This document shows positions 8,423 to 32,577 of a stretch of 33,892 bases of DNA, piece after piece. This DNA comes from Burkholderiales bacterium (lineage in GTDB: Bacteria > Pseudomonadota > Gammaproteobacteria > Burkholderiales > Casimicrobiaceae): contig JADLEZ010000369.1 in the NCBI GenBank assembly GCA_020845855.1, positions 1-33,892 on the forward strand, read 5' to 3'. The translations under genes were made by a program, and so were the position numbers. Every line of letters starts with the position of its first letter. Within the stretch, counting starts at the first letter, position 1. The notes beneath the pieces are model-generated. The model had not been told where the DNA came from. It saw only the letters and a program-made list of their open reading frames with translations, and did not search any database.

Positions 8423-8445
8423 AGTGGAATGTTGCCGGGGGCGGT

Positions 8446-10643: not shown

Positions 10644-10679
10644 GGTTCGCGCGCTCCCGCGTGCCGCCGGCACGATCGG

Positions 10680-11519: not shown

Positions 11520-11535
11520 CGGGGTTTGCGAAGGC

Positions 11536-12540: not shown

Positions 12541-12592
12541 GACGATCCTCCTTCTGTTGATCCGACCATCCCTTCCCCGCGCCTCACCCTGC

Positions 12593-14553: not shown

Positions 14554-14598
14554 TCAGGTCTCCTTTGTCGACCTCGTCTTCGCTCCAATCGGTCCTGG

Positions 14599-15399: not shown

Positions 15400-15411
15400 C
15401 GTCGCGCCTTT

Positions 15412-17156: not shown

Positions 17157-17275
17157 AGTAAGCGCTCATTTTTCGAGATCGACTATCGATTTGCGAATTC
17201 ACTCGCTGTGCCACGGCACTCCGCACGGTGAGTGCTTTGCCCGATTCGTTCACGTCGCACCTGGAGAAGGCTTCA

Positions 17276-19027
17276 ATGCCATCGGAGAAGGTCATACAAA
17301 CGGACGTTCTGGTTATCGGCGCGGGGATGGCGGGATTCTTCGCCGCGATGAAAGCCCGGGAACAAGGGCTGGATGTCACGCTGACGGACAAGGCGTTCGC
17401 CGGCAAGGCGGGCAGCACGCACTTCTCCGAGGGAGACATCCAATACTTCAGAAAGGGCCTCGGCCACGACACCAAGGAGTGGATCGATCTCATCAGCAGG
17501 AACAGCGAATACCTCAACAACCGGGAATGGGACGAGATCTGCCTGCGGGAAGCCGAGGAGCGCTATGACGATCTCGTTCGCTGGGGCGTGCAGTTCTACG
17601 AAAAGGACGGCAAGCTCTACGTGTTCGGCACCCCCAAAGAGACCGGAGTCGCCGCACCCGCCAACGCGTATGCGGTGATTTCGCAGCAGAACCGCAAGTT
17701 CGCCCCGACGCTGCGCAGCAGAGCGCTCGAAGTCGGCGTGCGGGTGCTGGACCGATTGATGATCTCCGAGCTCCTCCGGCAAGACGGCAGGATCGCCGGC
17801 GCGGTCGGCTTCAACACGAACAGCGGCGATCTGTATGTCCTGAAAGCCAAGGCGACCATCCTGGCGACCGGTGCGAGCAGCCTCAAGGCCGGCGCCTACC
17901 CGGTCTACTCCTACACCGGCGACGGCGAAGTGATGGCCTACGAGGCAGGCGCCGAAGTCGTCAGCAAGGAGTTCATGTACGGGATGGCCTACTCCAGGGC
18001 GGACGTCCACCGCCGGCGACAGGGCGGCAGGGCCGAAATCTCGAGCAACGCCGTGGACACGTCGTACCGCCACCCCTTCGCGATCGGCGGCGATTTTTCC
18101 GGCTGGTTCAACAGGCCGAATCTCAATTCGGAAGGCGAGCCCGTCGTATATCCGGCGTGGGACGCGCACCAGGGCAAGGCCCCGCTGTATCTGGAGCTGT
18201 CCTCGTCGACCGATTGGATTCTCAAGGAATTTTTCAACCGCATCGGCACGTCCCAAGCGGACAAGATAGGACTGGACGTCCGGCACGGGGTGCAGATCAA
18301 GTGGCCGTCCTCCCGGATCATGACCAACTCGATCTGGAACGGCTCGGGCATCTGGGCGACCGACAAGAGCTGCTCGGTCGGCATCCCGGGGCTTTTTGCC
18401 GCCGGCAACAGTTGCGGAACCATGGCCTCGGGAGCGATGTACGGCGGCATGGGCTTCGCGAGCAACCATGCCATGGTCACCGGCGCGAGAGCCGCCATGG
18501 GCGCCGCGGCCTACATCGCGCAAAACGGGGAATGCGCCGTTTCGAAGGAGGAGGTCGCCAGGGTGAAGCAGGACATGTGCCGTCCGGTCGAGCGCAAGGG
18601 CGGCTTTAGTCCCGCGTGGGTGACCCAGGCGCTGCACGGGGTGACCATTCCCTACTACTTCCTCGACATCAAGCACGCGACGCGAATGCAGGCCGCGCTC
18701 GGCATCGTCGAGTTCCTGCGCGACCACGTGGTGCCCAAGCTCAAGGCCGAGTCGCCGCACGAATGGCGCCTCGCGCACGAAGCACGGAACATGGTCACGA
18801 TCGCCGAGATGCGGTTTCGCTCCTCGCTGTTCCGAACGGAGAGCCGGGGCAATCACTTCCGGGAGGACTACCCGAAGCGTGACGATCCGAACTGGCTCGC
18901 CTGGGTGAAAGTGAGGAAAGCCGGCGAAGCAATGGAGCTCGTCAAGGTACCGATACCGCAAGCCTGGTGGCCGGACATGAGCAAGCCGTACGAGGAGCGT
19001 TACCCGCGCATTCTTCCCGGGGAGTGA
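17276..19027 (+). CDS. Fumarate reductase/AprA-family FAD flavoprotein, second copy
   Basis: A 583-residue flavoprotein, the same length as the one at 12802-14553 and related to it along its whole length (QTDVLVIGAGMAGFFAA; KAGSTHF; VLDRLMISELLRQDGRI; VPGLF-like IPGLFAAGNSCGT; RTESRGNHFREDYPKRDD). The FAD motif is at residues 12-25; the Arg-containing RTESRG..FREDYP motif near the end is that of fumarate and APS reductases. The ATG has AGAAGG 5 bases upstream; an ATG-like start 48 bases earlier is less likely. Unlike the first copy it has no separate small ferredoxin; the next gene has ferredoxin modules fused to an NAD(P)H-linked flavoprotein instead. An FNR-like box lies about 120 bases upstream. 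Confidence 0.88.
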   Translation: MPSEKVIQTDVLVIGAGMAGFFAAMKAREQGLDVTLTDKAFAGKAGSTHFSEGDIQYFRKGLGHDTKEWIDLISRNSEYLNNREWDEICLREAEERYDDLVRWGVQFYEKDGKLYVFGTPKETGVAAPANAYAVISQQNRKFAPTLRSRALEVGVRVLDRLMISELLRQDGRIAGAVGFNTNSGDLYVLKAKATILATGASSLKAGAYPVYSYTGDGEVMAYEAGAEVVSKEFMYGMAYSRADVHRRRQGGRAEISSNAVDTSYRHPFAIGGDFSGWFNRPNLNSEGEPVVYPAWDAHQGKAPLYLELSSSTDWILKEFFNRIGTSQADKIGLDVRHGVQIKWPSSRIMTNSIWNGSGIWATDKSCSVGIPGLFAAGNSCGTMASGAMYGGMGFASNHAMVTGARAAMGAAAYIAQNGECAVSKEEVARVKQDMCRPVERKGGFSPAWVTQALHGVTIPYYFLDIKHATRMQAALGIVEFLRDHVVPKLKAESPHEWRLAHEARNMVTIAEMRFRSSLFRTESRGNHFREDYPKRDDPNWLAWVKVRKAGEAMELVKVPIPQAWWPDMSKPYEERYPRILPGE

Positions 19028-19077
19028 TGCACGTCGTCCAACGGTCCGTCCACGTTCGCGTGAACAGACGCAAAACC

Positions 19078-19110
19078 GTGTCAGATTCCTCGCTGCGCTC
19101 GGAATGACAC
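19078..19110. repeat. Short palindromic repeat (R4), related to R1-R3
   Basis: GTGTCA and TGACAC ends enclose an inner ATTCC/GGAAT pair with one unpaired base and an 11-base loop. The ends match those of R1 and R2, but the core differs (ATTCC for ATCCC). It lies in the gap between the second flavoprotein and the GltD-like gene, where the hairpin could weaken read-through or protect the upstream message. Confidence 0.65.
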
Positions 19111-19150
19111 AATTTCCTCACGAACCGGCTCGACCGGGGAGGCTAGTGGA

Positions 19151-20776
19151 GTGATCGAACTTGTAGACGCCGATCTTTGCAACGGCTGCCGGCTTTGCCT
19201 GGATACCTGTCCGACGGACTGCTTCCGGTTGGATACGGTCGTGGCGCAGCGAGCCGAACAGCCGCCGTGTCAGATCGCTTGCCCGGCGGGGGTGGACATG
19301 CGCCGGTACCTGTATCTCGTGCGCGAAGGCATGATCGACGAGGCGATCGGCGTGCTCGAGGAGTGCCTGCCGCTCGCCTCCGTCACCGGCCGCATATGCC
19401 CGCACCCGTGCGAATCGGCATGCGCGAGGAAGGACGTCGACGAGGCGGTCAACATCAACTCGCTGGAGCGTTTCGTGGGCGACCGGTGGATCGCGCAAAG
19501 GCCTGCTTCGGCGCGCGTGATCTACCGCGCGAAAGTGGCGGTCGTGGGATCGGGTCCTGCCGGCCTGGCCTGCGCCTACGTCCTGGCGCGCAAGGGCTAT
19601 CCGGTCACGATTTTCGACAGCATGCCCGAAGCCGGCGGGATGCTGAGGTACGGCGTACCCGACTTCCGGCTTCCCAGAGCCGTTCTCGATGCCCAGGTCG
19701 ACTATCTGCGGGCGATGGGCATCGAGTTCCGGCTGAATACTCCCATCGGCCGCGCAACGTCGCTCGATGACCTGACCAACGAGTATCAGGCCGTGTTCGT
19801 GGCAGTCGGCGCGAGCCGCAGCAGGAAGATCGACATCGACGGCAAGGAGCTCACCGGGGTCTTATGGGGACTCGAATTCCTGCGCGATGCCAATGCCGGC
19901 AAGCCCGCGCCGGCCGCCGGCAAGAAGGTGGTGGTGATCGGCGGCGGCAACGTGGCGATGGACGCCGCGCTCACCGTCAATCGGCTGGGCGCTGCGCGCG
20001 TGCAGATGGTGTGCCTGGAATCCGAGGCGAAGATGCCGGCCTATGCCGAGGAAAAGCGGCAGGCGCTGGAGGAGGGCGTGGTGATCGACGCTTCCTGGGG
20101 GCCCAGGAAGATCGTCGGACGGGACGGAAAAGTCGCGGGCATAGAGTTGGTGCGCTGTGTCGGCGTCACCGACAGCGCCGGCAGGTTCGCGCCCTCCTTC
20201 GACGAAGGCGAGACGAAGTTCATCGAAGCCGACCTCGTGATCCTGTCCATCGGGCAGGAAGCGGACCTGTCCTTGCTGCCAGACGACGTGCGCACGACCG
20301 CATCGAAGACGATCCGGGTGGATCCGCTGACCCTGCAATCGAGCCGGCCCGGTGTCTTCGCCGGCGGCGACGCCGTTTCCGGCAGCGCGACCGTCGTCGA
20401 GGCCATCGCAGCCGGGAAGGCAGCGGCCGTTTCCATCGATCGCCTGCTGAAAGCGGAAGACCTCCGCGCGGGCAGGGACGTGAAGCCCAAGCGAGTCATG
20501 AAACCGCCCAAAGAGCGCATCCCGCACATCCCGCGGCAGCCCACACCCTGGCTGCCCGTGCGCGAGCGGTCGGCCAACTTCGAGGAGGTCAAGCGCGGCT
20601 TCTCCGACGACACCACCCGGTTGGAGGCGCAGCGCTGCATGACCTGCGGCAGCCGGGCCATCATCGCGTATCCGGAGGACTGCCAGATGTGCATCTTCTG
20701 CGAGCGCGATTGCCCGACCAACGCCATCTACGTCTCGCCCGACAAGACCGAGCTGCCGATGATGGCCTGGAGATAG
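19151..20776 (+). CDS. GltD-like NAD(P)H/FAD oxidoreductase with ferredoxin modules at both ends
   Basis: A 541-residue electron-transfer protein. Residues 1-25 form a four-Cys 4Fe-4S motif (C10, C13, C16, C20). Residues about 38-110 are the Cys-rich domain of glutamate synthase small subunit and dihydropyrimidine dehydrogenase (PPCQIACPAGVD, GRICPHPCESAC). Then come an FAD motif VVGSGPAGLACAYVLARKGY, the NAD(P) motif VVVIGGGNVAMDAALTVNRLGA and the second FAD motif PGVFAGGDAVSG. The end holds another set, CMTCGS..., CQMCIFCERDCP. GTG start with GGGGAGG 8 bases upstream. It probably carries electrons between NAD(P)H and the flavoprotein encoded before it, replacing the small ferredoxin of the first copy. 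No large glutamate synthase subunit is present. Confidence 0.87.
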   Translation: MIELVDADLCNGCRLCLDTCPTDCFRLDTVVAQRAEQPPCQIACPAGVDMRRYLYLVREGMIDEAIGVLEECLPLASVTGRICPHPCESACARKDVDEAVNINSLERFVGDRWIAQRPASARVIYRAKVAVVGSGPAGLACAYVLARKGYPVTIFDSMPEAGGMLRYGVPDFRLPRAVLDAQVDYLRAMGIEFRLNTPIGRATSLDDLTNEYQAVFVAVGASRSRKIDIDGKELTGVLWGLEFLRDANAGKPAPAAGKKVVVIGGGNVAMDAALTVNRLGAARVQMVCLESEAKMPAYAEEKRQALEEGVVIDASWGPRKIVGRDGKVAGIELVRCVGVTDSAGRFAPSFDEGETKFIEADLVILSIGQEADLSLLPDDVRTTASKTIRVDPLTLQSSRPGVFAGGDAVSGSATVVEAIAAGKAAAVSIDRLLKAEDLRAGRDVKPKRVMKPPKERIPHIPRQPTPWLPVRERSANFEEVKRGFSDDTTRLEAQRCMTCGSRAIIAYPEDCQMCIFCERDCPTNAIYVSPDKTELPMMAWR

Positions 20777-20800: not shown

Positions 20801-22747
20801 ATGATCGTCGGCATCGTCGGCCATATCGACCACGGCAAGACACTGTTGGTGAAGACGCTGACCGGCGTGGACACCGACCGCCTGCCGGAGGAAAAGGCTC
20901 GCGGCATCTCGATCGACCTTGGTTTCGCCCCCTGGCCGTCCGCCGCCGGGGACGACGGCGCGATCGGATTCGTGGATGTGCCCGGCCACGAGCGTTTCAT
21001 CCACAACATGCTGGCCGGGACGTGCGGCATCGATTTCGCGCTCTTGGTGGTGGCCGCCGACGACGGCGTCATGCCACAGACCGTGGAGCACCTGCAGATC
21101 CTGAACCTGCTGGGAGTCCGCCGCGGACTCGCCGCGATCACCAAGATCGACCGGGTCGATCCCGCGCGCGTAGCGCAGGTGAAGACAGACCTGCAGGCGC
21201 TGCTCGCGGAAACCGCGCTTGCCGGAATCACGCTGCTCCCGGTCTGCGCGGTCAGCGGCGCGGGCATGGACGCGCTGCGCCGCAGCCTGCGCGCCGCGGC
21301 CGCCGCGCAGGCCCAGCGCTACCGCGAGGGGCAGCATTTCCGGCTCGCGATCGACCGCGCCTTCAGCGTCGCGGGCAGCGGCACCGTCGTCACCGGCACC
21401 GTGTTCAGCGGGCGCGTGCAATTGGGCGACCGACTCGTGGTGTCGCCCAAGGGAGTGCCCACGCGCGTGCGCGGCCTCCAGATCTGGGGCCACGCCGTGG
21501 AACGGGCGCAGGCGGGCGATCGCTGTGCGATCAATCTATCCGGAGTCGACGTCCGGGGCGCCACGCGCGGCAACTGGGTGCTGCACGACGCCATCCACGC
21601 GCCGAGCCGGCGCCTGGATGTCCGCTTCACGCTCCTGCCTACGGAACGCGCGCCCCTCGGGCACTCGACGCCGGTGCACCTGCACCTCGCCACCGTCGAC
21701 GTCCTGGCGCGAGTGGCGCTGCGCAAGGCGATCGCGCCGGGGACGACGGCGGCGGCGCAACTCATCACGGAGCTCCCGGTCAACGCGCTGAACGGCGATC
21801 GCTTCATCCTGCGCGACTGCTCGGCAAGCCGCACGCTGGGCGGCGGCAAGGTGATCGATCCGCTCGCCCCGCCAAGCCGCCGCGCAACCACGGTGCGACT
21901 GGACGCGCTCAACCTCGACACGCCCGAGGCGGCGCTCGCGGCGCTGCTCGCGATCCCCAAGCAGACGGTCGACTGCCGGCACTTCGAGACGATCTTCAAC
22001 CTCGATTCGGGGCGCGCCGCTGCGCTCTACCGGTCACGGAATGCGGCCATCGCGGGCCGCGCGCAGCCCGTCGCCCTTGCGTGCGCAGCCGTCGATGCGC
22101 TGCGCGAGGGCGTGCTCGCGCGCCTGGACGAGTTCCATCGTGCGCAACCGCAGGCTCCGGGCATCGAGCTTTCCGCGCTACGCAGGCAGGTCGCACCGTG
22201 GCTCGCAGCCGATGCGTTCTCCTTCCTGCTCGATGGCTTGGGCGAAACAGGGCAGATACAAGTGAGCGGCGCAATCGTGCAACGCTCCGGATACGACGCC
22301 ACGTCCAATCCCGCGGACGAAAAGATGTGGCGCGCCGTGGCGCCGGCGCTCCTTCAGAGCCGCTTCACCCCGCCAGAGACTGCCGAACTGGCGCGCCGCC
22401 TGGGTCTGAATGAAGCTGCCCTGCGCAGCTTCCTGCACCGCAAGAGCAAGGCCGGCATGGTCATGCAAGTCGGCAAGGAGCGCTTCTTTCTCAAGGCGAC
22501 GCTCGCCACCCTCGCCGCCAATGCCGCCCTGGTGGCGCGCTCGGCTTCGAAGGGTCTGTTCACCGCCGCGCAATATCGCGACGCGACCGGCATCAGCCGC
22601 AACCTGGCGATAGAAATCCTGGAATTCTTCGACTCTCGCGGCATCACGCAGCGCATCGGCGATGCGCGCAAGATGCACCAGAACTTCGTCCCGATTCTCG
22701 GGCCGGCGAAACCCTCCTTCACTTGCGGGCCTCGGCGGAAGAGTTAG
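20801..22747 (+). CDS. selB: Selenocysteine-specific elongation factor SelB (first copy)
   Basis: A 648-residue GTPase that brings selenocysteyl-tRNA to the ribosome at UGA codons marked by a SECIS hairpin. GTPase motifs: GHIDHGKT (residues 7-14), DVPGHE (59-64), TKID (114-117). Sequence TGVDTDRLPEEKARGISIDLGFA is diagnostic for SelB rather than EF-Tu. Translation-factor beta-barrels follow (VAGSGTVVTGTVFSG), then winged-helix domains in the last 250 residues that should bind the SECIS (FTAAQYRDATGISRNLAIEILEFFDSRGIT, quoted in part). It begins 24 bases after the GltD-like gene and its last 12 bases overlap the 3' end of tRNA-Sec on the other strand. A different SelB is encoded at 26079-27953. 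Confidence 0.95.
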   Translation: MIVGIVGHIDHGKTLLVKTLTGVDTDRLPEEKARGISIDLGFAPWPSAAGDDGAIGFVDVPGHERFIHNMLAGTCGIDFALLVVAADDGVMPQTVEHLQILNLLGVRRGLAAITKIDRVDPARVAQVKTDLQALLAETALAGITLLPVCAVSGAGMDALRRSLRAAAAAQAQRYREGQHFRLAIDRAFSVAGSGTVVTGTVFSGRVQLGDRLVVSPKGVPTRVRGLQIWGHAVERAQAGDRCAINLSGVDVRGATRGNWVLHDAIHAPSRRLDVRFTLLPTERAPLGHSTPVHLHLATVDVLARVALRKAIAPGTTAAAQLITELPVNALNGDRFILRDCSASRTLGGGKVIDPLAPPSRRATTVRLDALNLDTPEAALAALLAIPKQTVDCRHFETIFNLDSGRAAALYRSRNAAIAGRAQPVALACAAVDALREGVLARLDEFHRAQPQAPGIELSALRRQVAPWLAADAFSFLLDGLGETGQIQVSGAIVQRSGYDATSNPADEKMWRAVAPALLQSRFTPPETAELARRLGLNEAALRSFLHRKSKAGMVMQVGKERFFLKATLATLAANAALVARSASKGLFTAAQYRDATGISRNLAIEILEFFDSRGITQRIGDARKMHQNFVPILGPAKPSFTCGPRRKS

Positions 22748-22825
22748 GAGTCGAACCCCAGGGAACGATTACGCCCCCTCACTGGATTTGAAGTCCAGGC
22801 GCCCCACCGGGGACGTGACTCTTCC
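22736..22825 (-). tRNA. selC: tRNA-Sec, anticodon UCA
   Basis: Reading the minus strand, the molecule has acceptor 5' strand GGAAGAGT pairing with ACTCTTCC, and discriminator G. The D-arm is GTCCC-CGGT-GGGGC with the same 5-bp stem and 4-base loop as E. coli selC. The anticodon arm CTGGA-CTTCAAA-TCCAG is identical to E. coli, with anticodon TCA at 22789-22791. A long variable arm GGGGGCG/CGTTCCC follows, then T-loop TTCGACT. CCA is not encoded. The acceptor plus T stem 3' strand is only 12 bases long (usual bacterial 8+5 is 13), and the T stem contains a G-A mismatch. It lies 10 bases after selA on the same strand, so it may be cut from the selA transcript. Confidence 0.95.
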
Positions 22826-22835
22826 GGTGCCGATG

Positions 22836-24320
22836 CTAATGTCTTTTCCGGCCGCCGGGAAGACGAAGTCGATCGAGCTGCGCGAAGAGGAGCTCTTCGT
22901 CGTCCAGGCAGCGTAAGTCGAGCAGCAGCGCGCCGCTGTGCACGCGCCCGATGACCGGAACCGGCAGCGCGCGCAGCACTTGCGATAACCTCTCTACCCG
23001 CGCCTGCGCCTGGCGGCACGCCACGCGCGGCCGGATCGCGAGGCAGAAGCTCGGCAGGGCGTCGCCCGGCAGCGCACCGCTGCCGACCTGGCTCTCGCAG
23101 GGCTCCGCGCTCACGTCGGCGTGCGCCGCGAGCGCCTGCGAGGCGCGCGCCAGCAGGCGGCGCGCCTGCGCCTCGATGTCCGCGCGCGAACGGCGAAGGT
23201 GACGCAGCAGCGGGAGTTCCACCGCCAGGCGGTCCGGATTCGAGTACAAGCGAAGCACCGCGGCAAGCCCGGCGACCCTGAGCTTGTCCAGGCGCACGGC
23301 GCGCTTGAGCGCGTTGCGGTTGATCCGCTCGACGAGCGCGCCGCGCCCCGCGATGATGCCCGCCTGCGGACCGCCGATCAGCTTGTCGCCGCTGAAGGTG
23401 ACGAGGTCCGCGCCCGCGGCGATCGTCTCGGCCGCCGTGGGTTCGTGCGGCAGGCCCCAGCGCCGCATGTCGAGCAGTGCGCCTGCGCCCAAATCCGATA
23501 TCAGCGCCAGTCCGCGCGCGTGCGCGAGTTTCGCGAGCGCCCGCTCATCGACCGACGTCGAAAACCCCACGATCCGATAGTTGCTCGGATGCACCTTCAT
23601 GATGAGCGCCGTGGCGGGTCCGATCGCTTCGGCATAGTCCTCGAGGTGGGTGCGGTTCGTGGTGCCCACCTCCACCAGGCGGCAGCCCGCGCGCTTCATG
23701 ATCTCGGGCATCCGGAATTCGCCGCCGATCTCGATCAGCTCGCCGCGCGACACGAGCACCTCCCTGCGCTGCGCGAGCGTGTTCAGCGCGAGGAGCACGG
23801 CGGCCGCATTGTTGTTCACCACGGTCGCGCGCTCGGCGCCCGTCATCTGCACGAGAAGCGCTTCGAGGTGCCGGTCGCGGTCGCCGCGCCGGCCGGTCTC
23901 GAGGTCGAATTCCAGGTTCACCCCATGGGCGGCCGCCTCCGCGATCGCCTCGATCGCCGCGCGCGGCAAGCTCGCGCGGCCGAGATTGGTATGCAGCACG
24001 GTGCCGGTCAGGTTAAATACCGGCCGCAACGACGCTGTCGCGGCGCTTGCCAGGCGCGTGCTCACCCGTGCCGCGATGTTCTCCGCGCTGCTTTCGTCCG
24101 GCGCCGCCTCCGCACGGGCACTCAGGCGAGCGCGTAGAGCGGCGGCTTCGGCGCGCACCGCGGCGACGACCGCCTCGCGCCCGTGCTCCGCGATCAGGAC
24201 CGCGACGCTCGCGAGCCTAAGGATCCGGTCGACCGACGGGATCGAAATCTGGGCCGGCCGGCCTACTCGCATGGCCGTCATCGACTGCGGGACTGCATCG
24301 TGTGGCTCAATACCTCTCAT
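22836..24320 (-). CDS. selA: L-seryl-tRNA(Sec) selenium transferase
   Basis: A 494-residue PLP enzyme that converts seryl-tRNA-Sec to selenocysteyl-tRNA-Sec with selenophosphate. Visible: N-terminal IPSVDRILRL, FNLTGTVLHTNLGRASLP, VNNNAAAVLLALNTLA, SRGELIEIGGEFRMPEIM, VGTTNRTHLEDY, SDLGAGALLDM, and GDKLIGGPQAG, whose Lys313 should hold PLP. The ATG overlaps the end of the selenoprotein gene upstream by 14 bases; ATGs at codons 14 and 17 are possible alternatives and lose nothing conserved. tRNA-Sec follows directly. It is the only SelA in the window and must serve both selenoproteins. selD, which makes the selenium donor, is not here. Confidence 0.95.
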   Translation of the reverse strand: MRGIEPHDAVPQSMTAMRVGRPAQISIPSVDRILRLASVAVLIAEHGREAVVAAVRAEAAALRARLSARAEAAPDESSAENIAARVSTRLASAATASLRPVFNLTGTVLHTNLGRASLPRAAIEAIAEAAAHGVNLEFDLETGRRGDRDRHLEALLVQMTGAERATVVNNNAAAVLLALNTLAQRREVLVSRGELIEIGGEFRMPEIMKRAGCRLVEVGTTNRTHLEDYAEAIGPATALIMKVHPSNYRIVGFSTSVDERALAKLAHARGLALISDLGAGALLDMRRWGLPHEPTAAETIAAGADLVTFSGDKLIGGPQAGIIAGRGALVERINRNALKRAVRLDKLRVAGLAAVLRLYSNPDRLAVELPLLRHLRRSRADIEAQARRLLARASQALAAHADVSAEPCESQVGSGALPGDALPSFCLAIRPRVACRQAQARVERLSQVLRALPVPVIGRVHSGALLLDLRCLDDEELLFAQLDRLRLPGGRKRH

Positions 24321-26007
24321 ACACGGGGACGATGCTCCGGTAGCGGGCGACGAGCTTGTCCCATCCCGCGGGCACGCGGATCTTCTTGCTCACGAAATGG
24401 CTTCCCGGCAAGCCGCCGCCGCTGACGATACCCACGATGGCGCCCGCACCACCCGCCACCACGATTCTCACGTCTTCGGCGCTGGGCAGCACGGCCATGG
24501 GGTCCATGGGGTTCGGCGGCAGCGTGCCCGGCTCCCGCGAAAAAATCAATCCGTGAGAGGCACGATGCTTGTAGGCCGGCACGCGCCCGAATTCGTACGC
24601 GTACTTGGCGATCAGCGCCTTGGTCCAGCCCTTGGCCGCGAGCACTTTGGCCTGCGCCGGGGTGACGAGGAAGCAAGTCAGGCCGCATCTTCCCGGAAGC
24701 AGGTTGTAGACGAGGGTGCAGAGGATACCCCGGTCGTCCGTCCCATACTGCATGAGCTGGGTGTGGCTGTTCGGGTAGAAGAGCGTTACGGCGCTATCTT
24801 CCTTGCCGAATCCCTGGTCGACGTGCAACGGTTGCCAGGGACTCGCCTCCTCGTTCTCGGCGATCACGCTCGAGTACTTCGCGGGATTGCCGAAGACGCC
24901 CATGTCCTCCACGGCCTTGCGCGCGCCGCCGATGTTCTTCACGACGAGCCCCAGGGCGCGACCAATGGCCGCGTTCGCGATGTCGCCGGGACTCAGCGCA
25001 CCGGAACCGCCGTTCACGCGCGCATCGTGGCGCACCGGGCCGCTGACGATACAAAACGGCGCCCAGGAGCCGGTGCTGGTGCCGTAGACGCCGAACTTGC
25101 CCGCCGGGTCGACCAGCGCTTCGACGCACGCGATCAGGATCGGCAGGTGGATCGGCAAGGCGCCGGCCATGACGGCATTGACCGCGATGGTCTCGACGGT
25201 CGCGAAGCCGTAACGGGGCTCGATCTTGCCGACGAGATGATCAGGCGGCAGGTCGGTCCCGGCGAGCATCTCGCGCACCGCGGCCTCGGTGGGCGGAACG
25301 AGCGGCAGGCCGTCGCCCCAGCCGCGTCTGTAGAAGAACCGGTTGACCTCGTCGAAGCGGCCCTCGAAGACGATGCGTGAGGGCATCTCCTCCCGCTTGC
25401 GTTCGGGGGCAGCTTCCTCCCGGGTGAGCGGGCGCACGAGCGCGGCGACGATGTCCTCCATCGCGAGACGAATGCCCGCCTCCGCGACTTCGGCCACGGT
25501 GCACTCGCACGGAATCGTCTGGGCGACGATGCGCACGCCCGGCATTCCCACGTTCGACGCGGCAGACCGCCCGTCGGTGACGAATCCCTCGTTCGCGAGT
25601 ACTACCGCGGGCCGATGCAAGTCCTCGACGGATATTGCATCGTGCACGAGGAACTTCGTGCAGGAGCCTCAGTCTGCTACCGCGAGGACGACGGCATCCA
25701 CACCCCCGAGCCAGGCGATGAACTTTTCCTTGCCGACCGTGCGCATCTCCGGCAACGCTGTCTCGTCGGTAGCCGTGTACCAGGAAGGCTTCGCGCCCGG
25801 CGCCCGCTCGCGCAACTGCTTTTCGAACGCCTCCAGCACGGTGCGTGACGCACGCTTGGCGTTGGCGTAGAGGCCGATTCGCTTGCCGTCGAGGTCTTGC
25901 AGGCGCGCTGAAATGCCGCGCAGCGGGACGGGCGCTGCTTCGGCCCACGGGCTTAACACGTCGAACTGCATTCCATCCCGGCCGGGATGCGTGGAACTCG
26001 CTTCCAT
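24307..26007 (-). CDS. UGSC-family selenoprotein (copy 1), Sec at codon 113
   Basis: The frame runs for 566 residues if the in-frame TGA at 25669-25671 is read as selenocysteine. It is followed by codons for Gly-Ser-Cys, giving AVAD-U-GSCTKF. The ATG has GGGAGG about 10 bases upstream. The N-terminal 180 residues form an alpha/beta part (LDGKRIGLYANAKRAS, GVDAVVLAVADUGSC, RPAVVLANEGF). The long C-terminal domain has EVNRFFYRRGWGDGLPLVPPTEAAVREML (quoted in part), ETIAVNAVMAGALPIHLP and NPAKYSSVIAENEEASPW. Function is unknown; the family is known by this motif, in which Cys can replace Sec. A Sec/Cys pair spaced U-x-x-C suggests thiol-selenol redox chemistry. Flanked by selB and selA. The true stop is also TGA, with no Gly-Ser-Cys after it. 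Confidence 0.9.
25643..25671 (-). promoter_or_regulatory. UGA-Sec codon and candidate SECIS hairpin, copy 1
   Basis: Taking U of the UGA (25671) as base 1, bases 10-16 TGCACGA pair perfectly with 23-29 TCGTGCA, leaving loop AGTTCC (17-22) that contains G-U at 18-19. Distance and a G-U in the loop fit bacterial SECIS elements in coding sequence. No bulged U is seen in the upper stem, unlike copy 2. The pairing is direct observation; the function is inferred from the UGA and SelB context. Confidence 0.7.
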
Positions 26008-26068
26008 CGTTGGCCTACCTCCCTGATCAGTCGGTTTCCGATCGTTGCATCCGGTCGCGCAGGGAGAT

Positions 26069-26082
26069 TTGATACGCATCAA
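26069..26082. promoter_or_regulatory. Perfect FNR-type operator before selenoprotein copy 1
   Basis: TTGATACGCATCAA matches TTGAT-N4-ATCAA at all ten positions. It is 62 bases upstream of the selenoprotein ATG and covers the stop codon of the selB copy transcribed before it (26079-26081). At the class II spacing the transcript would begin near 26034, with a weak -10 (AACGAT on the minus strand). It would give the selenoprotein-selA-selC part a promoter of its own. Possible binding proteins are FNR, DNR or other CRP/FNR members; none is encoded here. Confidence 0.65.
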
Positions 26083-27953
26083 GCAAGCATCCGATGAGTA
26101 TCGCCCACCCTGCGCGCCAAGCCCACCCGATTGAAATACTCCAGGACTTGAATTGCGCGCTGGCGCCCGAGCTGCGTGCGATCGCGAAATTCGGCGGCCG
26201 TGACGCAGCCTCCCGCGGCGGCCGCGGATCGGTGCGCAATCGCCGCCAGCGTCGCCATCTGGGCGCGGGAAAAGTACAGGTCCTCGACGATCTGGTGCAG
26301 CTCGCCACGCTGCGCGAGACGTGCGAGCGACGTGCGTACGGCGGATTCCGGCTCGCCCGCTTCCCGCGCAAGGTCGCGCACCCAGGCTCCGCGGCGAGCA
26401 TTCGCGATCATGGGCGAAACCCGCTCCGCGATCCGCCCGTCTTCCGCGGACAGCGTCGCGCCATGCGCGGGCAACTGCACGAATGCCCCTCGAATGACGA
26501 TGTCGTCCCGGCGCTGCAAACGAGCGAGGATCTCGCGCCAAAGCGGCTCGGGCAGTCGCGGCGCGATCGACCGGCGCAGGCTGCCCGCATCGGGACCCGG
26601 CTCGTCAGGCCGCTTGGCGTGCCATGCGGCGAGGCTCTCGAGCGCCGCTTGCTCGATGTCGCGAACATGCCGCGCGGCGAGCGCCCAATTGCCCTGGCTG
26701 CCGGCGCGTGCCAGGACGCCGCGCGCATCGAGTTTCACGGGACGGCCTTGCGCGGCGGCGAAGCGATCGAGGTCGAGTCCCTGCTCACGCCGTGCGAGGA
26801 GCGTCTCGGCACGCGCCGACACGTCGGACAATGCCAGCGCGTCGAGCTCGGCCAGGCGCTGGGGTGTGCGCCGGCACCGCTTTTGTCCGAACGGGTCCAG
26901 CACGATACCGCCGGCGATCGTGCGGCTGCCCGAGGCATCGCGCAAGACGACGCGGTCGCCGTGCCACGCACATATCGACGAGCGCAACACGAGTTGCACG
27001 CGCGCCGATGCGCGAGGCTCGACGAATTCGCCGTCGAGTATGGCGACAGTGCCGAGCGCCGATGCCGTACCGATGTGGGCGCGTATCGGCGCTCCGGTAC
27101 GCAAGGTCCGCTCCTCGGCCCGCCACAGCACCAGGCTCGCGTCCAGACGATCAGTCGCCAAGGCCGCCGCCGGCGCCACCAGCCACTGCCCGCGCTTGAC
27201 CTGCTCGCGCGCCAATCCGGCGAGCGCGATGCCGCAGCGCTCGCCGGCGCTCGCGCTTCGCACCGCGCGGCTCTGAGCATGCAGGCTGCGCACGCGAACC
27301 CGAATCGAGCCCGGCATGAGCAGCAGTTCCTCGCCGACGGACACGCACCCCGCGTGCACCGTGCCCGTTGCCACCGTTCCCACTCCGTTGAGCGTAAACG
27401 CACGATCGACGGCGAGTCGAAACCATCGGTCGTCCGTGCGCCGGCCGGCAGCACGCGACGCGGCATCCAGAAGGCGGATCTTCAGCTCGGCCAGTCCTCG
27501 ACCGGTCCGCACCGAAGCCGGCACGACCGGAGCGCCCGCCAGAGGTGTGCCTTCGAGCAGTGCGGCGATCTGGTTCCCTACGTCCTCCACGCGCTGCGCT
27601 TCCACGCGGTCCGTCTTCGTCACGACCGCCACACCGCGCGCGATTCCCAGCAGGGACAAGATGGCGAGATGCTCGCGCGTCTGCGGCATCACGCCATCGT
27701 CCGCGGCCACCACCAGGAGGCCGAAGTCGATCCCCGTGGCGCCGGCCAGCATGGTATGCACCAAACGCTCATGGCCCGGGACGTCGACAAAGCCGATGCG
27801 GCGGTCGCCGCCGGCGTCGAGATAGGCATAGCCGAGCTCGATGCTGATCCCGCGCTTTTTTTCCTCCGGCAGGCGATCCGTATCCACACCCGTCAGCGCG
27901 TGGATCAGCGCCGTCTTACCGTGATCGATGTGGCCGGCCGTTCCGACGATCAT
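26079..27953 (-). CDS. selB: Selenocysteine-specific elongation factor SelB (second copy)
   Basis: A 624-residue SelB, clearly a full and intact gene. GTPase motifs: GHIDHGKT (7-14), DVPGHE (57-62), TKTD (112-115), with the SelB hallmark TGVDTDRLPEEKKRGISIELGYA. The EF-Tu-like barrels contain LNGVGTVATGTVHAG. The C-terminal winged helices (AEFRDRTQLGRQRAIQVLEYFNRVGLARRVGDTHR, quoted in part) are those expected to bind SECIS RNA. It agrees with the plus-strand SelB mostly in the GTPase domain and much less in the C-terminal half, so the two are not a recent duplication. It sits between the thioredoxin-reductase-like gene and selenoprotein copy 1, all on one strand. No strong Shine-Dalgarno is seen. 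Confidence 0.95.
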   Translation of the reverse strand: MIVGTAGHIDHGKTALIHALTGVDTDRLPEEKKRGISIELGYAYLDAGGDRRIGFVDVPGHERLVHTMLAGATGIDFGLLVVAADDGVMPQTREHLAILSLLGIARGVAVVTKTDRVEAQRVEDVGNQIAALLEGTPLAGAPVVPASVRTGRGLAELKIRLLDAASRAAGRRTDDRWFRLAVDRAFTLNGVGTVATGTVHAGCVSVGEELLLMPGSIRVRVRSLHAQSRAVRSASAGERCGIALAGLAREQVKRGQWLVAPAAALATDRLDASLVLWRAEERTLRTGAPIRAHIGTASALGTVAILDGEFVEPRASARVQLVLRSSICAWHGDRVVLRDASGSRTIAGGIVLDPFGQKRCRRTPQRLAELDALALSDVSARAETLLARREQGLDLDRFAAAQGRPVKLDARGVLARAGSQGNWALAARHVRDIEQAALESLAAWHAKRPDEPGPDAGSLRRSIAPRLPEPLWREILARLQRRDDIVIRGAFVQLPAHGATLSAEDGRIAERVSPMIANARRGAWVRDLAREAGEPESAVRTSLARLAQRGELHQIVEDLYFSRAQMATLAAIAHRSAAAAGGCVTAAEFRDRTQLGRQRAIQVLEYFNRVGLARRVGDTHRMLA

Positions 27954-28018
27954 GGTGAGCCGGAATCACGAACGATACCGCGATGCCGGGATGGCGGCGG
28001 AGTAGCGCCGGTGAAGTT

Positions 28019-28939
28019 TCACTGCTTCAGCTCATCCAGGTAGCGTCGTGCCGCCGCGGCGGCTGCCGCCCCGTCGCTCACGGCGGCGGCCACCGAGCGC
28101 GGAGAGCCGCGCCGGATGTCGCCGGCGGCGAAGATACCCCTCACGCGGGTCGTACCGTTTTCGCCGATCGCGACGTGCCCGTCCTCCTCCAGCCCGAGCA
28201 CGTCGCGCAAGTACGCCGTCGCCGGAACGAAGCCGACGTGCACGAGAACGCCGTCCACCGCCAGCAGCGCGTTGCGTTCCCCTTCTGCGATTTGCAGTCC
28301 GGTCACGAACCCCTCGCCGCGCACTTCGAGCGGCCGCACGGCGCAGCGGATGTCGAGCTTCGGATGCGCCTGCGCGCGCTCCTTGATAGCCGCGGGCGCG
28401 CTCAGTTGCGCCGCCGCCTCGAGCACATAGACCTTGGCGGCGTGCTTCGCCAGCAGCATCGCCTCGACCAGGCCGGCGCGGCCGCCGCCGCAGACCGCAA
28501 CCGTTTTCCCGGTGTACAGGCCGGCGTCGCAGGCCGCACAGTGGATCATCCCCTTGCCGGCGAGCGCCTGCTCGCCGGGCACGCCCAGCGGCTTCGACTG
28601 CAGGCCGCCGGCAAGCACGAGGACCGAAGCGCTGTAGGCCTTGCCGTCGCTGCACGTCACTGCCTTCATGCGCGAGTACGACTCGACCTCGACGACCTCC
28701 CCGTGCTGCAGGCGCACGCCGCTTTCCTTCGCGTGGTCGATCATGCGCGCCGCAAGCTCATTGCCGGTGACCCTTTCGCCCTGCGCGGGGTAGTGCATCA
28801 CCCACTCGAGGTTCATCACCCAGCCGCCGAAGGATTCCTTCTCGAGCAGCAACACCTCGCGGCCCGCCTGCGCGAGATCGGCCGCAGCCGACAGTCCCGC
28901 CGGCCCGCCGCCGATCACGATCGCGTCGCGGTGCGTCAC
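28019..28939 (-). CDS. Thioredoxin-reductase-like FAD/NAD(P)H flavoprotein
   Basis: A 306-residue protein of the thioredoxin reductase fold. FAD motif IVIGGGPAGLSAAADLAQAG (from residue 7), redox pair CAAC at 134-137 (IHCAACDAGLY), nucleotide motif VAVCGGGRAGLVEA (from 147) and the closing FAD motif RGIFAAGDIRRGS. Both Cys of CxxC are present, so it can pass electrons from NAD(P)H to a thiol partner. GTG start: its first four bases, GTGA, overlap the TGA stop of selenoprotein copy 2, so the two are translated together. The best guess for its partner is therefore that selenoprotein's U-G-S-C centre, although a thioredoxin elsewhere in the genome is possible. FFRP-like ferredoxin-NADP reductases share the fold but lack the CxxC. 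Confidence 0.88.
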   Translation of the reverse strand: MTHRDAIVIGGGPAGLSAAADLAQAGREVLLLEKESFGGWVMNLEWVMHYPAQGERVTGNELAARMIDHAKESGVRLQHGEVVEVESYSRMKAVTCSDGKAYSASVLVLAGGLQSKPLGVPGEQALAGKGMIHCAACDAGLYTGKTVAVCGGGRAGLVEAMLLAKHAAKVYVLEAAAQLSAPAAIKERAQAHPKLDIRCAVRPLEVRGEGFVTGLQIAEGERNALLAVDGVLVHVGFVPATAYLRDVLGLEEDGHVAIGENGTTRVRGIFAAGDIRRGSPRSVAAAVSDGAAAAAAARRYLDELKQ

Positions 28940-30576
28940 TGCCACGCGTCGACCCGCGCCGAAGACGGGCGCGACATTTGCCATGCCTGCGCGAAGGCGT
29001 TCGTCTCGCCGCCGGCAACGATGATCCGGATCGACCCTTCCGGGTACACCGGGAAGCGGTCGTGCGGCTGCAGCTTCAGGATGTCGGGCGACCAGACGGC
29101 CTTTTTGCCGTACCAGTCGTGTCCCATGAGGACCGGCTCGATGATCGGCACGTAGAAATGATCGGACTGGAACTGCGCGCGCGTTCTGGTGGCGCGCGCG
29201 CGGATGTACGCCTCGGCCGCCTGCTTGCTGTAGCCCTTCGCGGCGATGCGCCGCGCCGATCTCGGATCCACGATGAACATGGCGCCGCTCGGCAGCTCGT
29301 ACTGGGCGATCGCCTCGGCCATGGAATCCATGCCGCGCTCCACGTCGTCCTGCAGCCAGGCGAAGGGGCCGCTGTGGCTCCAGCCGCCGGTCATGACGGT
29401 AACCACGCTGTCTTCGCGCTGGTAGCCCTGCGCGACGTGGAACGGCTCCCAGGGGCTGCGCTCCTCGTTCTCGGCGAACGCGAAGCTGTACTTGGCCGGA
29501 TTGCCGATGCTGCTCATGTCGTTGACGCCGCTGCGCGAGCCGCCGAGACAGATGATGGCGAGCCTGAGGAAGCGGCCGATCGTGGCGTTCGCCTGGTTGC
29601 CGGTTCCGGAGCCGAGCGCGTTGACGCCCGCGTTCATGCCGATCCTGCGCGCGGCCGGCCCGTTGACCACCACCGAGAAGCAGAGCGAGGTCGTGGAGCG
29701 GATCGTGGAGGAGAACCAATCCTTGTCGAACGCCTGGACGAGCGCGAGCAGCACGGGCAGCGCCCGCGGCTCACACCCTGCCATCACCCCCACGACGGCA
29801 ACCTTCTCGACGGTGACGGTGTAGCTCTCCGGAAGCATGCGGGTCGTCACCACCTCGTCGGGTGCATGGCTCGTGCACGCGAGCATCTCGCGCACCGCTT
29901 TGTCGGTGGGCGGGATGATGGGCAGGCCGTCCGACCAGCCGCGCTTGCAGAAGAACCGGTTCACCTCGGCGAGCGTGCCCTCGAACGCGACGCGTCCCGG
30001 CCGCTCGATCGCAAGCGGCGGCGGCGAGCGCTCGGCCTCGGTGAGCGGCCGCGTCAGGGCATCGACCAACTGCGGCAGGATGTTCGGCAACTCGGCGTCG
30101 CTCACCTCGCCGCAGGGATGCGGGACGAGCACCCGGCGAAGCTGCGGCATCCCCTCCTTGTCGCAGGTGATCTGCGTGTCCGCCTCGAACCCCCGGTCGA
30201 CGATGAAAACGCCGGGAACACCGCGCTTTTCGAGCTCCATGGTCCAGTGGGCACCCCACATGGAACACGACCCTCAGGCAGCGCAGCCGTAGATGACCGC
30301 GTGGCCCTTGTGCGCAATCTCGTCCCACAGCGCCGGGTCGTCGGCCATGAAAGCCGTGGCCTTGTGGACGAACACCGTCTTCACGCCAGCGACCCGCTTC
30401 GCCAGCGCATCGGCAACCTTCTTCATAAAACTATCCGCGCCGCCGATGAACTGGCTGATGCAATAGACCGTGCTTCCCTCGAGGCTTTCGAGCCGCGCCG
30501 CCAGCGAAACGGTGGGCACTTCCTGCTGCTCGCCGGCGGGATCGAGCACCGTGTAGATCGGTTCGTCTTCCATCAT
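28936..30576 (-). CDS. UGSC-family selenoprotein (copy 2), Sec at codon 101
   Basis: The frame runs for 546 residues if the in-frame TGA at 30274-30276 is read as selenocysteine, giving YGCAA-U-GSCSMW. Without that, the gene splits into a 100-residue piece and a 440-residue piece in the same frame. AGGA lies 8 bases before the ATG pair. The layout matches copy 1: an alpha/beta N-part (LESLEGSTVYCISQF, HAVIYGCAAUGSC, VPGVFIVDRGFEAD) and a long C-part with EVNRFFCKRGWSDGLPIIPPTDKAVREML (quoted in part), VEKVAVVGVMAGCEPRALP and NPAKYSFAFAENEERSPW. Here a Cys three residues before the Sec gives C98-A-A-U101-G-S-C104, a second possible redox partner lacking in copy 1. It follows two Bug-type binding proteins by 21 bases. 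Molecular function unknown. Confidence 0.92.
30243..30276 (-). promoter_or_regulatory. UGA-Sec codon and SECIS hairpin, copy 2
   Basis: With U of the UGA (30276) as base 1, TCCA (13-16) pairs with TGGA (31-34), U17 is bulged, GTGGG (18-22) pairs with CCCAC (26-30), and the tip holds G23-U24-G25. A bulged U below a short upper stem, with G-U at the tip, is the arrangement that SelB recognises in the E. coli fdhF SECIS, and the positions agree closely. This is strong support for selenocysteine insertion. Confidence 0.82.
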
Positions 30577-30597
30577 AGTCCGCGTCCTGTTGCGTGA

Positions 30598-31575
30598 TCA
30601 ATCGGTCTTGATGTTGCTGGCCTTGATGACCTTCGCCCACTTGCCGACCTCGGCACGCACGTAAACGTCGAACTCGTCCGGCGTGGACCCGACCACCTGC
30701 GCGCCGAGCTTTTCGAGCTGCGCCTTGACCTCCGGCTTGTTGATGCCCCGCGTGACGTCCCGCTGGATCTTGTCGATGATCGGCCGCGGCGTGCCGGTGC
30801 GTACCATCAACCCGAGAAAGCTCGCCACGGCAAATCCCGGAATCGTGTCGGCGATCAGCGGGTATTCCTTGATGTCGGCCGGCCGCGTGCTCGCGGCCAG
30901 GGCGAGAATCCTGACCTTGCCCTGATCGGCCAGGGCCTTTGCCGACGCGTAGGCGTTGAACATGGTGTCTACGCGTCCGGCCACGAGGTCGAGCATCGCG
31001 GCGGGGCTGCCGTTGTAGGGCACCATCATGACGTCGATCCCCGCCTCGATCTTGAGCATCTCGCCCGCGAGATGCGAGGCCGATCCCAGCAGCGGCGAGG
31101 CGCAGGTTACCTTGCCCGGTTGCGCTTTCGCATACGCGATCAGCTCGCCGACCGTCTTGTAGGGTGCGGCTGGATGGGCGATCAGCACCATCGGCAGGTT
31201 GACGAGCTGGGTGACGAAAGCGAAATCCCGGAGCGTGTTGTAAGGGATGGTTGCCGCATGCAGCGTCGGGTGGATCACGAACGTGGAGGTGTCGAGGAGG
31301 ATGTCCTGCCCGTCGGGCGCCGACTTGGCCACCGTGCTGGCGGCAATCTGCCCGCCCGCTCCCACCTGGTTCAGGACGACGACCGGCTGACCCCATGCCT
31401 CCTGCAGCTGATGCGCCACGATACGCGCGACGACATCTCCCAGGCCGCCGGGTGCACTGCCCACGACCACGCGGACCACGCCATTCGGGTAGGCTTGCGC
31501 CGCCGCCGGATGAGGCGCGCCGAGCATCAGCGTGCACAGGCCTGCGATAACCGCGAATCGCGCCAAGTGCTTCAT
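30598..31575 (-). CDS. Bug-family (TctC-like) periplasmic binding protein, second of pair
   Basis: A 325-residue exported protein of the Bug/tripartite tricarboxylate receptor family. Signal peptide: MKHLARFAVIAGLCTLML, cleavage probably after AAAQA. Family motifs: VRVVVGSAPGGLGDVVARIVAHQL, VVLNQVGAGGQIAASTVAKSAPDG, TCASPLLGSASHLAGEML, VDTMFNAYASAKALADQGKVRILALAASTRP (quoted in part) and MVRTGTPRPIIDKI. It closely resembles the protein encoded just before it, from tandem duplication. No TctA/TctB membrane genes are near, which is common for this family; such orphan receptors may serve a transporter elsewhere or a sensing role. Its stop lies 21 bases before selenoprotein copy 2, so it is in that operon. 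Ligands of relatives are carboxylates and similar small molecules. Confidence 0.9.
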   Translation of the reverse strand: MKHLARFAVIAGLCTLMLGAPHPAAAQAYPNGVVRVVVGSAPGGLGDVVARIVAHQLQEAWGQPVVVLNQVGAGGQIAASTVAKSAPDGQDILLDTSTFVIHPTLHAATIPYNTLRDFAFVTQLVNLPMVLIAHPAAPYKTVGELIAYAKAQPGKVTCASPLLGSASHLAGEMLKIEAGIDVMMVPYNGSPAAMLDLVAGRVDTMFNAYASAKALADQGKVRILALAASTRPADIKEYPLIADTIPGFAVASFLGLMVRTGTPRPIIDKIQRDVTRGINKPEVKAQLEKLGAQVVGSTPDEFDVYVRAEVGKWAKVIKASNIKTD

Positions 31576-31593
31576 GTCTTCCCCCTCGACCGG

Positions 31594-32577
31594 TCAGTTG
31601 ACCTTGATCTTCGCCGCCTTGACCACCTTCGCCCACTTGACGATCTCGGCCCGCACGAAGGCGTCGAACTCGTCCGGGGTGGAGCCGACGATGTACATGC
31701 CCTGCTTTTCGAGCTGCGCCCTGACCTCCGGTTTCTTCATGGCCGCCGCCATGTCGCGCTGGATCTTGTCGATGATCGGCCGCGGCGTGCCCGAGCGCAC
31801 CATCAGCCCGAAGAAACTGGTGACGCCGAATCCCGGAATCGTCTCGGCGATCACCGGGTACTGCTTCAGATCCGCCGGCCGGGTGCTCGAGGCGAAGGCG
31901 ATGACCTTGATCTTGCCCTGCTCGACGAAGGGCTGGACGGCCGCCCAGGAGTTGAACATGGTGTCCACACGCCCAGCCACGAGGTCGAGCATGGCGGGCC
32001 CGCTTCCCTTGTACGACACGTGCAGCATGTCGATCCCCGCTTCGATCTTGAGCATCTCGCCGGCCAGATGCGAAGCGGAGCCCAGGAGCGGCGTGGCGTA
32101 GGTGACCTTGCCCGGGTGCGCCTTGGCATACGCGATCAACTCGGGCAGGGTGTTGAAAGGCGCCTCGGCATGGGCAACCAGCACGACATGCTGGGTGAAC
32201 AGCAGCGTGACGAAGGCGAAGTCCTTGAGGGTGTCGAACGGGATCGTTTCTGCGTGCAGCGTCGGATTGATCACGAACGACGTGGTGTCGACGAGGATGT
32301 GCCGCCCGTCGGGCGCCGACTTGGCCACCGTGTTGGCGGCAATCAGGCCGCCCGCCCCGACCTGATTCAGCGTGACGACGGGCTGACCCCATGCCTCCTG
32401 CAAGTTATGGGCGACGATGTTGCGCGCGACGAAGTCCCCCGGACCGCCCGCCGGACCACCCACCAGCACGTTGACCACGCCGGCCGGGTAAGCCTGCTGC
32501 GCCGCCGCCGGCCCGGCCACGCCGAGCCCGAGCATGCACAAGCCCGTAAGGAAGGCGATCCGCTTCCAGAGTTTCAT
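31594..32577 (-). CDS. Bug-family (TctC-like) periplasmic binding protein, first of pair
   Basis: A 327-residue exported protein. Signal peptide MKLWKRIAFLTGLCMLGLGVAG with cleavage after PAAAQ. Mature motifs as in the next gene: VNVLVGGPAGGPGDFVARNIVAHNLQEAWGQPVV (quoted in part), NQVGAGGLIAANTVAKSAPDG, YATPLLGSASHLAGEMLKIEAGIDMLHVSYKGSGPAMLDLVAGRVDTMFN (quoted in part). The ATG has AGGAGG 8 bases upstream; an earlier in-frame start 24 bases before would place residues ahead of the signal peptide. First gene of the run that leads through the selenoprotein and Sec-decoding genes to tRNA-Sec. A FNR-like box lies about 120 bases upstream. Confidence 0.9.
   Translation of the reverse strand: MKLWKRIAFLTGLCMLGLGVAGPAAAQQAYPAGVVNVLVGGPAGGPGDFVARNIVAHNLQEAWGQPVVTLNQVGAGGLIAANTVAKSAPDGRHILVDTTSFVINPTLHAETIPFDTLKDFAFVTLLFTQHVVLVAHAEAPFNTLPELIAYAKAHPGKVTYATPLLGSASHLAGEMLKIEAGIDMLHVSYKGSGPAMLDLVAGRVDTMFNSWAAVQPFVEQGKIKVIAFASSTRPADLKQYPVIAETIPGFGVTSFFGLMVRSGTPRPIIDKIQRDMAAAMKKPEVRAQLEKQGMYIVGSTPDEFDAFVRAEIVKWAKVVKAAKIKVN

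Follow-up and report, generated by a model that had tools for sequence, protein, structure and literature searches.

Two selenoprotein genes of the UGSC family in one run with selenocysteine-decoding genes: a possible catabolic operon in a Burkholderiales bacterium

Clusters in which selA, selB and selC stand with fdhA occur in Alpha-, Beta- and Gammaproteobacteria, and it has been argued that their members move together (PMC1794560). UGSC-containing selenoproteins, and a fusion of UGSC with a partner named Unknown_1, have also been described (PMC2398784). The far operon for fluoroacetate reductase encodes GrdB-like proteins, for which cleavage of the substrate's C-F bond has been proposed (PMC10838667), and a reversed selC/selB overlap has been described for Shewanella and Ferrimonas (PMC8124441). 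We draw on excerpts of these papers, and of the review cited at the end, and what is said of them here extends as far as those excerpts do. Here we analyze a 33,892-nucleotide (nt) stretch of DNA, hereafter the window, from a Burkholderiales bacterium of the family Casimicrobiaceae (assembly GCA_020845855.1, contig JADLEZ010000369.1, positions 1 to 33,892), in which a minus-strand run of genes at 22734-32577 combines two genes for UGSC proteins with genes for decoding selenocysteine (Sec). We lean, with a little better than even confidence, towards reading this run as a catabolic operon in which genes for two GrdB-like selenol enzymes stand together with those needed to decode their Sec codons.

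In order of transcription the run reads two TctC receptors, UGSC2, a thioredoxin reductase (TrxR)-like protein, SelB2, UGSC1, SelA and tRNA-Sec. An earlier note on this DNA had claimed a minus-strand run of about 10 kb with small gaps or overlaps and these eight features; all eight are present, and no gap exceeds 71 nt. The first gene is TctC/Bug solute receptor 2 (31594-32577; PF03401, 211.2 bits), followed by receptor 1 (30598-31554; 194.6 bits), both above the family cut-off. UGSC2 (28936-30576; PF24696, 104.1 bits) and UGSC1 (24307-26007; 95.5 bits) each consist of a UGSC domain fused to a second domain, CT. Between them lie the gene for the TrxR-like flavoprotein (28019-28945), which has a CAACD motif and matches TIGR01292 at 234.2 bits, below the cut-off of 343.45, and that for SelB2, a Sec-specific elongation factor (26079-27953; TIGR00475, 423.3 bits against a cut-off of 242.25). 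The run ends with SelA, the selenocysteine synthase (22836-24320; TIGR00474, 560.6 bits against 267.9), and the tRNA-Sec gene selC, with anticodon tca (22734-22826; found by ARAGORN, and by Rfam RF01852 at 66.8 bits). From tRNA-Sec to TctC 2, with the start codons assumed here, the intergenic gaps are 9, -14, 71, 65, -10, 21 and 39 nt; the TrxR-like gene starts within the 3' end of UGSC2, and SelA and UGSC1 overlap. The inventory of decoding genes in the earlier note was right for SelA, SelB and tRNA-Sec in the run and overlooked a second full SelB, SelB1 (20801-22747, plus strand; TIGR00475, 390.4 bits), which is convergent with the run and shares 14 nt at its end with the tRNA-Sec gene. No terminator-like site lies between the minus-strand genes of the run; there are five sites in all, against 6.1 in shuffles, and the two on the minus strand are inside SelB1 and inside UGSC1. 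The neighbor upstream (32735 onward, plus strand) is divergent, so the run starts at the first TctC gene.

A UGA codon usually ends translation. What, then, speaks for Sec in these two genes? The TGA of UGSC1 is at 25671-25669, in the UGSC motif, and that of UGSC2 at 30276-30274. Both proteins stand above the PF24696 cut-off of 25 bits, and both miss the 125-bit equivalog cut-off of NCBIfam NF041046 (UGSC_fam), at 74.7 and 77.6 bits respectively; by these scores they are divergent, fused members relative to that model. PF24696 was found in 9 of 119 genomes of relatives (own genome included), at 64 places in total, and a TGA lies inside the match at 63 of those places (nine genomes, the window's two genes included). 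Candidate minihelices of the selenocysteine insertion sequence (SECIS) type follow both codons. That of UGSC1 (25643-25662, minus strand; 7 bp with loop AGTTCC, helix scan, folding z -3.19) sits closer to the UGA than in most UGSC genes. That of UGSC2 (30244-30263, minus strand; 3 bp, a bulged U, 5 bp and loop GUG, RNAfold) lies in the register common to most UGSC genes and is a candidate only, the simple scan having chosen another helix with G-U pairs. Over 59 aligned sites, a helix at one fixed distance after the UGA has 79% standard pairs, against 23-46% when shifted by 1 to 3, and of the 57 sequences for which the scan reported a helix, 32 have its apex 19 nt downstream of the UGA. Z-scores against dinucleotide-shuffled versions of the SECIS region are on the whole weak (mean -0.75, 59 sequences); the fixed-register pairing test is the better evidence for SECIS elements. 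Judged by these patterns, the in-frame TGAs of the UGSC genes are more than chance.

The company of the UGSC domain is constant. Among 60 UGSC domains of relatives and window, 23 are fused to CT and 35 have a CT gene on the same strand within 4 kb; the other two are near contig ends, with CT not visible (the motif filter recovered 60 of the 64 PF24696 places, two spurious frame matches having been removed from 62). CT is probably the fusion partner Unknown_1, as the excerpted account describes it (PMC2398784). UGSC1 finds its best match in the first UGSC/CT protein of a gammaproteobacterial locus, L108 (53% identity over 557 residues), and UGSC2 in a cysteine (Cys)-type Variovorax protein (50% identity). 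To the earlier note the pair were proteins of unknown function, a description that profile comparison sharpens. With hhalign, the UGSC profile matches GrdB at 95-96% probability, scoring about 61 where 60 column-shuffled controls reach no more than 19.4, and still at 88% when two Cys-rich columns are masked; against the GrdE, TctC, TrxR and SelB profiles the probability is at most 2.4%. This comparison makes the UGSC domain a distant relation of the GrdB/PrdB selenoproteins (PF07355), the family of glycine reductase protein B. In a predicted UGSC/CT model, with a predicted local distance difference test (pLDDT) score of 81.7, the UGSC domain is a five-stranded alpha/beta domain whose PDB matches include flavodoxins; the model is flavodoxin-like and puts Sec after strand three of the core.

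The link to receptors, also claimed earlier, is borne out by enrichment. Of 58 UGSC/CT units, 30 have a TctC gene no more than 200 nt away, compared with 15.8% for random 1.7-kb segments taken from G117 and G068 (we cite genomes and loci of the comparison by handles in G and L); in those two genomes alone, TctC is near 19 of 39 units (p 1.6e-6). It is also present in 12 of 29 suitable named loci, these being the loci, from 80, with a Sec-type UGSC gene flanked on both sides by at least 7 kb. In a scan of 116 of the 208 listed neighbors of UGSC/CT units, covering G117 and G068 only and with a random control for the families of the TctC test only, TctC accounts for 22 of the 116 and the next family for at most 4, and the rest include varied catabolic enzymes. 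TctC receptors and varied catabolic neighbors together fit many enzymes with different substrates.

Is the association of UGSC with Sec-decoding genes peculiar to this contig? The earlier note had staked its idea of a portable functional unit on a repeated association of UGSC genes with selA, selB or selC in relatives, and a comparison of neighborhoods finds that the association recurs. UGSC genes have sel genes nearby in G017, G006 and G421 and at L108, L137, L163, L173 and L183. G017 and G006 belong to the same genus as the window genome, and in G006 only selB is visible before the contig ends. L108, from a gammaproteobacterial metagenome-assembled genome (G523), reads TrxR-like, SelB, UGSC/CT, SelA, UGSC/CT, tRNA-Sec. 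The alphaproteobacterial cases are from Roseobacter (L137), Caulobacteraceae (L163) and Phenylobacterium (L173), and on a megaplasmid of Paracoccus ferrooxidans (L183) UGSC/CT lies between selA and selB. On a tree of 189 CT rows made with FastTree, seven label changes are required to account for the 11 sel-linked rows, all forced by starred branches. These suggest about five separate origins of the linkage, because the window and L108 are each represented twice, with UGSC1 rows that are sisters: window/L108, G017, G006, Paracoccus, and an alphaproteobacterial/G421 group. Linkage in at least seven separate places would be too strong a statement, as the seven changes count rows. Presence and absence follow the same line. 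In a sample of 22 genomes of the genus, selB scores above cut-off in 3/3 genomes with UGSC and 0/19 without (Fisher p 6.5e-4), a sporadic distribution in which three genomes have both and 19 neither; in the order sample of 119 genomes, selB is found in 8 of 9 UGSC genomes and 29 of 110 others (p 3.4e-4). As side observations on the alphaproteobacterial loci, selB and the CT gene flank tRNA-Sec (L137 9288-9382, L163 9165-9260, L173 9372-9466), and CT might be one of the ORF1/ORF2 genes that the excerpted account places next to overlapping selBC in Alphaproteobacteria (PMC8124441).

What recurs is an association and not one fixed cassette, so that the portable unit of the earlier note survives in part only. 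Of the 29 suitable named loci, four are sel-linked and 25 are not, and linkage is absent from all UGSC loci fetched from the multi-copy genomes G117, G068, G108 and G075; the named and unnamed locus sets overlap in part (L145 and L079 share hit positions). UGSC/CT with a UGA is also carried by a conjugative IncP plasmid, p2-T1 of Acidovorax sp. T1, where IS1071 and IS91-family transposases are close by and the 20 kb seen contain no sel genes; the UGSC/CT region of this plasmid (L180 5539-13401) also has a phosphoenolpyruvate mutase/isocitrate lyase-family gene, a flavin adenine dinucleotide (FAD) oxidoreductase, TctC and aroA. The family scans found no mobility gene among those window proteins that they covered. 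The combination of UGSC and CT is widespread and uneven in copy number: at least 552 stretches in a species collection encode a relative, as do 24 of 72,556 plasmid records, and four genomes of the order hold 24, 19, 9 and 6 UGSC copies. A phylum sample shows it as rare, with 4 of 397 genomes besides the window's own; the comparison for sel linkage leaves aside G258 and G388 of that sample.

The differing ancestries of the SelBs also speak against a single cassette. SelB1 and SelB2 are 42% identical, and in a tree using 39 of 47 rows, SelB1 groups with the SelBs of G506, G108, G117 and G068 (support 98/93) and, less firmly, joins those of G006, G075 and Paracoccus. SelB2 clusters (support 100/100) with the SelBs of G049, G051, G060 and G061, of the same family, whose sel clusters adjoin formate dehydrogenase. 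The SelBs of the UGSC genomes G017 and G065 fall outside both groups. Since SelB1 and SelB2 are of different ancestries, the locus is a mosaic. Do the two SelBs then serve different SECIS elements? The early-apex helix of UGSC1 against the common register of UGSC2 gives ground for a guess that they are specialized on two SECIS types; it stays a guess because the L108 relative of UGSC1 has no helix of at least 5 bp in the scan and the L108 genome has one SelB. Elsewhere in the window's own genome, SelD is encoded on another contig, no PF07355 protein was found, the three partial matches resembling formate dehydrogenase all lack a UGA, and the next RF01852 match after the window's tRNA-Sec scores 48.2 bits, just above the family cut-off of 47. 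With one strong tRNA-Sec, no PF07355 protein and matches to formate dehydrogenase devoid of UGA, UGSC1 and UGSC2 may be the only selenoproteins of this genome. We also note a third, divergent SelB-like fragment (L097 9729-10547), about 36% identical to both SelBs, which is cut by the end of contig C544 and may be contamination, and a GltD-like protein about 2 kb from selD (L098 10355-12250, contig C16).

The earlier proposal of a dedicated reductase gains support from TrxR-like genes bearing a CxxC motif at sel loci. In G117, G068, G108 and G506 the sel locus has a TrxR-like gene placed between selB and tRNA-Sec; in G523 such a gene adjoins selB. At the sel locus it is present in five of eight UGSC genomes (G075, G065 and G421 lack it) and in none of ten genomes without UGSC, three of whose sel stretches end early at contig ends; several of these ten loci adjoin a formate dehydrogenase gene with a UGA. 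CxxC occurs in 14 of 16 TrxR-like rows, and the other two are fragments of 37 and 40 residues. Cys-type UGSC genes, too, have TrxR-like neighbors in Variovorax, Mycobacteriaceae and Neorhizobium (in the last on a frame-shifted stretch); in Variovorax boronicumulans EBFNA2 a Cys-type UGSC/CT gene stands beside TctC and TrxR-like genes, the group spanning 8065-11638 of locus L179, with no sel gene in 21.6 kb.

How might such an operon work? On the catabolic reading, the TctC receptors would bind an extracellular carboxylate, which after uptake would sit between the UGSC and CT domains. The UGSC selenolate would attack it and break a carbon-heteroatom or similar bond, as in GrdB relatives, and the TrxR-like flavoprotein would use NADPH to reduce the resulting selenium adduct or Sec-Cys bond of the UxxC motif. 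UGSC would be the main or sole reason for this genome to retain Sec decoding. A bolder view, which we hold tentatively and at clearly less than even confidence, is that UGSC/CT is a large, overlooked GrdB-like class in which each copy is tuned to its own carboxylate by TctC and in which the CT fold is not in the PDB; this class would repeatedly have pulled Sec-decoding genes and a dedicated NADPH reductase into sporadic lineages, in the present case leaving two SelBs that may read two SECIS types.

Several points weigh against the catabolic reading. A direct scan of the 23 fused UGSC/CT proteins matched 12 families at E<=10, and PF07355 was not one of them. CT, confidently modelled, has no detectable match among solved structures and is unlike GrdE (hhalign probability 0.08%), and a profile search of the window's own genome with PF09338 (GrdE) gave no match; the pyruvoyl chemistry of Grd is therefore not simply transferable. 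Of 37 homologue rows inspected, from 27 chosen loci, nine have S, L, N, M or A where Sec would stand; these nine come from Acidobacteria, Deltaproteobacteria and bacterium SM23_31. The fold can thus exist without Sec, and the scaffold has other uses. (Such paralogues are found at L130, L106, L119, L110 and L099, with two or three per locus at the first three.) Most UGSC loci show no TrxR-like gene, which was found in 1 of the 29 suitable named loci, and the role of this gene may be selenium assimilation. The tree test labelled rows with short flanks as unlinked. Finally, the view that UGSC1 and UGSC2 are the sole selenoproteins draws on searches for proteins resembling formate dehydrogenase and for PF07355 in this genome, whose bin has 8.06% contamination.

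Among other explanations, we take most seriously, as a minority possibility, that the TrxR-like protein supplies selenide from oxidized selenium and is not the reductant of UGSC. Thioredoxin reductases do reduce selenite, and in G117, G068, G108 and G506 the gene is at selB/tRNA-Sec and the UGSC genes found lie elsewhere. A role in assimilation sits poorly with the TrxR-like genes beside Cys-type UGSC, where no sel genes occur in the stretches seen, and with their absence from all ten sel loci of genomes without UGSC. It is a good deal less probable that UGSC is a thioredoxin-fold antioxidant or thiol oxidoreductase with no catabolic role, as has been suggested in print. UxxC is a redox motif, as this idea requires; the model, however, is flavodoxin-like, the UGSC profile matches GrdB (in a set of profiles that also held GrdE, TctC, TrxR and SelB, thioredoxin not being among them), and TctC is by far the commonest neighbor family, among varied catabolic enzymes.

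Might an ordinary sel cluster simply have landed beside UGSC genes, with no functional bond? SelB2 is of the lineage associated with formate dehydrogenase, and neither the 25 unlinked named loci nor the fetched loci of the four multi-copy genomes have sel genes beside UGSC. Nevertheless we think this improbable, slightly more so than the thioredoxin-fold idea: linkage appears in about five separate places in the tree, selB tracks UGSC perfectly in the genus sample, and by our own estimate, taking one selB per genome of about 4 Mb, some 0.5% of 20-kb stretches should have one, against the four of 29 observed. Nor do we give much weight to an SAO-like system for handling metals or organometals. 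Nearby ABC-transporter genes do match SaoA, SaoP and SaoX models, at scores far below the cut-offs (SaoA 212.4 against 360; SaoP 132 and 105.6 against 295; SaoX 27.4 against 300), and no other Sao model is among the NCBIfam matches listed for 20 window proteins; this reading is very improbable. That the UGAs are true stops, and the genes split or decayed, is the least credible of all. In some relatives the UGSC and CT domains are indeed separate genes (37 of 60 units are not fused), but the UGA is kept inside the UGSC domain at all but one of the PF24696 places, other relatives have Cys at that site, and both a SECIS-like helix and a full set of decoding genes are present.

Other genes in the window may be recorded briefly. 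Directly upstream of SelB1, at 17228-20776 on the plus strand, are a fumarate-reductase-like FAD flavoprotein and a GltD-like iron-sulfur NAD(P) oxidoreductase, the latter matching NF045663 ('diclust_near_Sec') below cut-off (198.9 against 530 bits). A minus-strand block at 8931-16227 encodes an ABC transporter of the sulfonate/taurine type (ATPase, receptor and two permeases), a flavoprotein and a thiamine pyrophosphate enzyme, and is likely another uptake-and-catabolism block. A B12-dependent ribonucleotide reductase of the NrdJ type is encoded at 5303-8299 on the plus strand.

Ever since the metagenome surveys, UGSC proteins have figured among the selenoproteins without an assigned function, and the present locus ties them to CT, TrxR-like and TctC partners. 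These partners, with the remote link to GrdB, whose selenol attacks small carboxylates, give a testable hypothesis for the class of substrate and for the electron donor. If it is true, catabolism by selenium-dependent cleavage of bonds would be common, and its reach would go well beyond the amino-acid fermenters that served for the study of GrdB. The two-SelB arrangement offers a natural test of SelB specialization on different SECIS elements. Searches of one open-access library turned up no report of UGSC with sel genes, with TrxR-like or TctC partners, or of a relation to GrdB. Selenoprotein genes moving together with selABC are known from fdhA, and the UGSC family is known as well; UGSC as the cargo appears to be new.

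How, then, does the locus stand beside described systems? It resembles the selABC-fdhA clusters, as excerpted, in that the decoding genes adjoin the selenoprotein that they serve, and differs from them in its cargo, two UGSC/CT genes with TrxR-like and TctC genes, and in having two SelBs and no formate dehydrogenase (PMC1794560). Its selenoproteins are of the family of the earlier metagenomic account (PMC2398784), now Pfam PF24696 and NCBIfam NF041046; genomic context, the relation to GrdB, the constant pairing with CT, the high copy number and the linkage to sel genes go beyond the excerpted part of that account, and the flavodoxin-like model predicted here departs from the thioredoxin-like fold suggested there. 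Like SAO and Tso operons, the run has several selenoprotein genes in one operon, and unlike SAO, as far as the review excerpt defines it, no Sao model passes its cut-off in the window (PMC13188914). As in the described cases of selC nested in or overlapping selB, tRNA-Sec overlaps the end of a selB; here the overlap is convergent and of 14 nt, with a second selB on the other side, unlike the cases in the excerpt (PMC8124441). The closest parallel in chemistry may be GrdB/PrdB and the far operon. No GrdE-like partner is present and CT is unrelated, in contrast to GrdB/PrdB as excerpted; the remote profile relation, the UxxC selenol, the substrate-specific paralogues and the transport gene in the operon are shared (PMC10838667).

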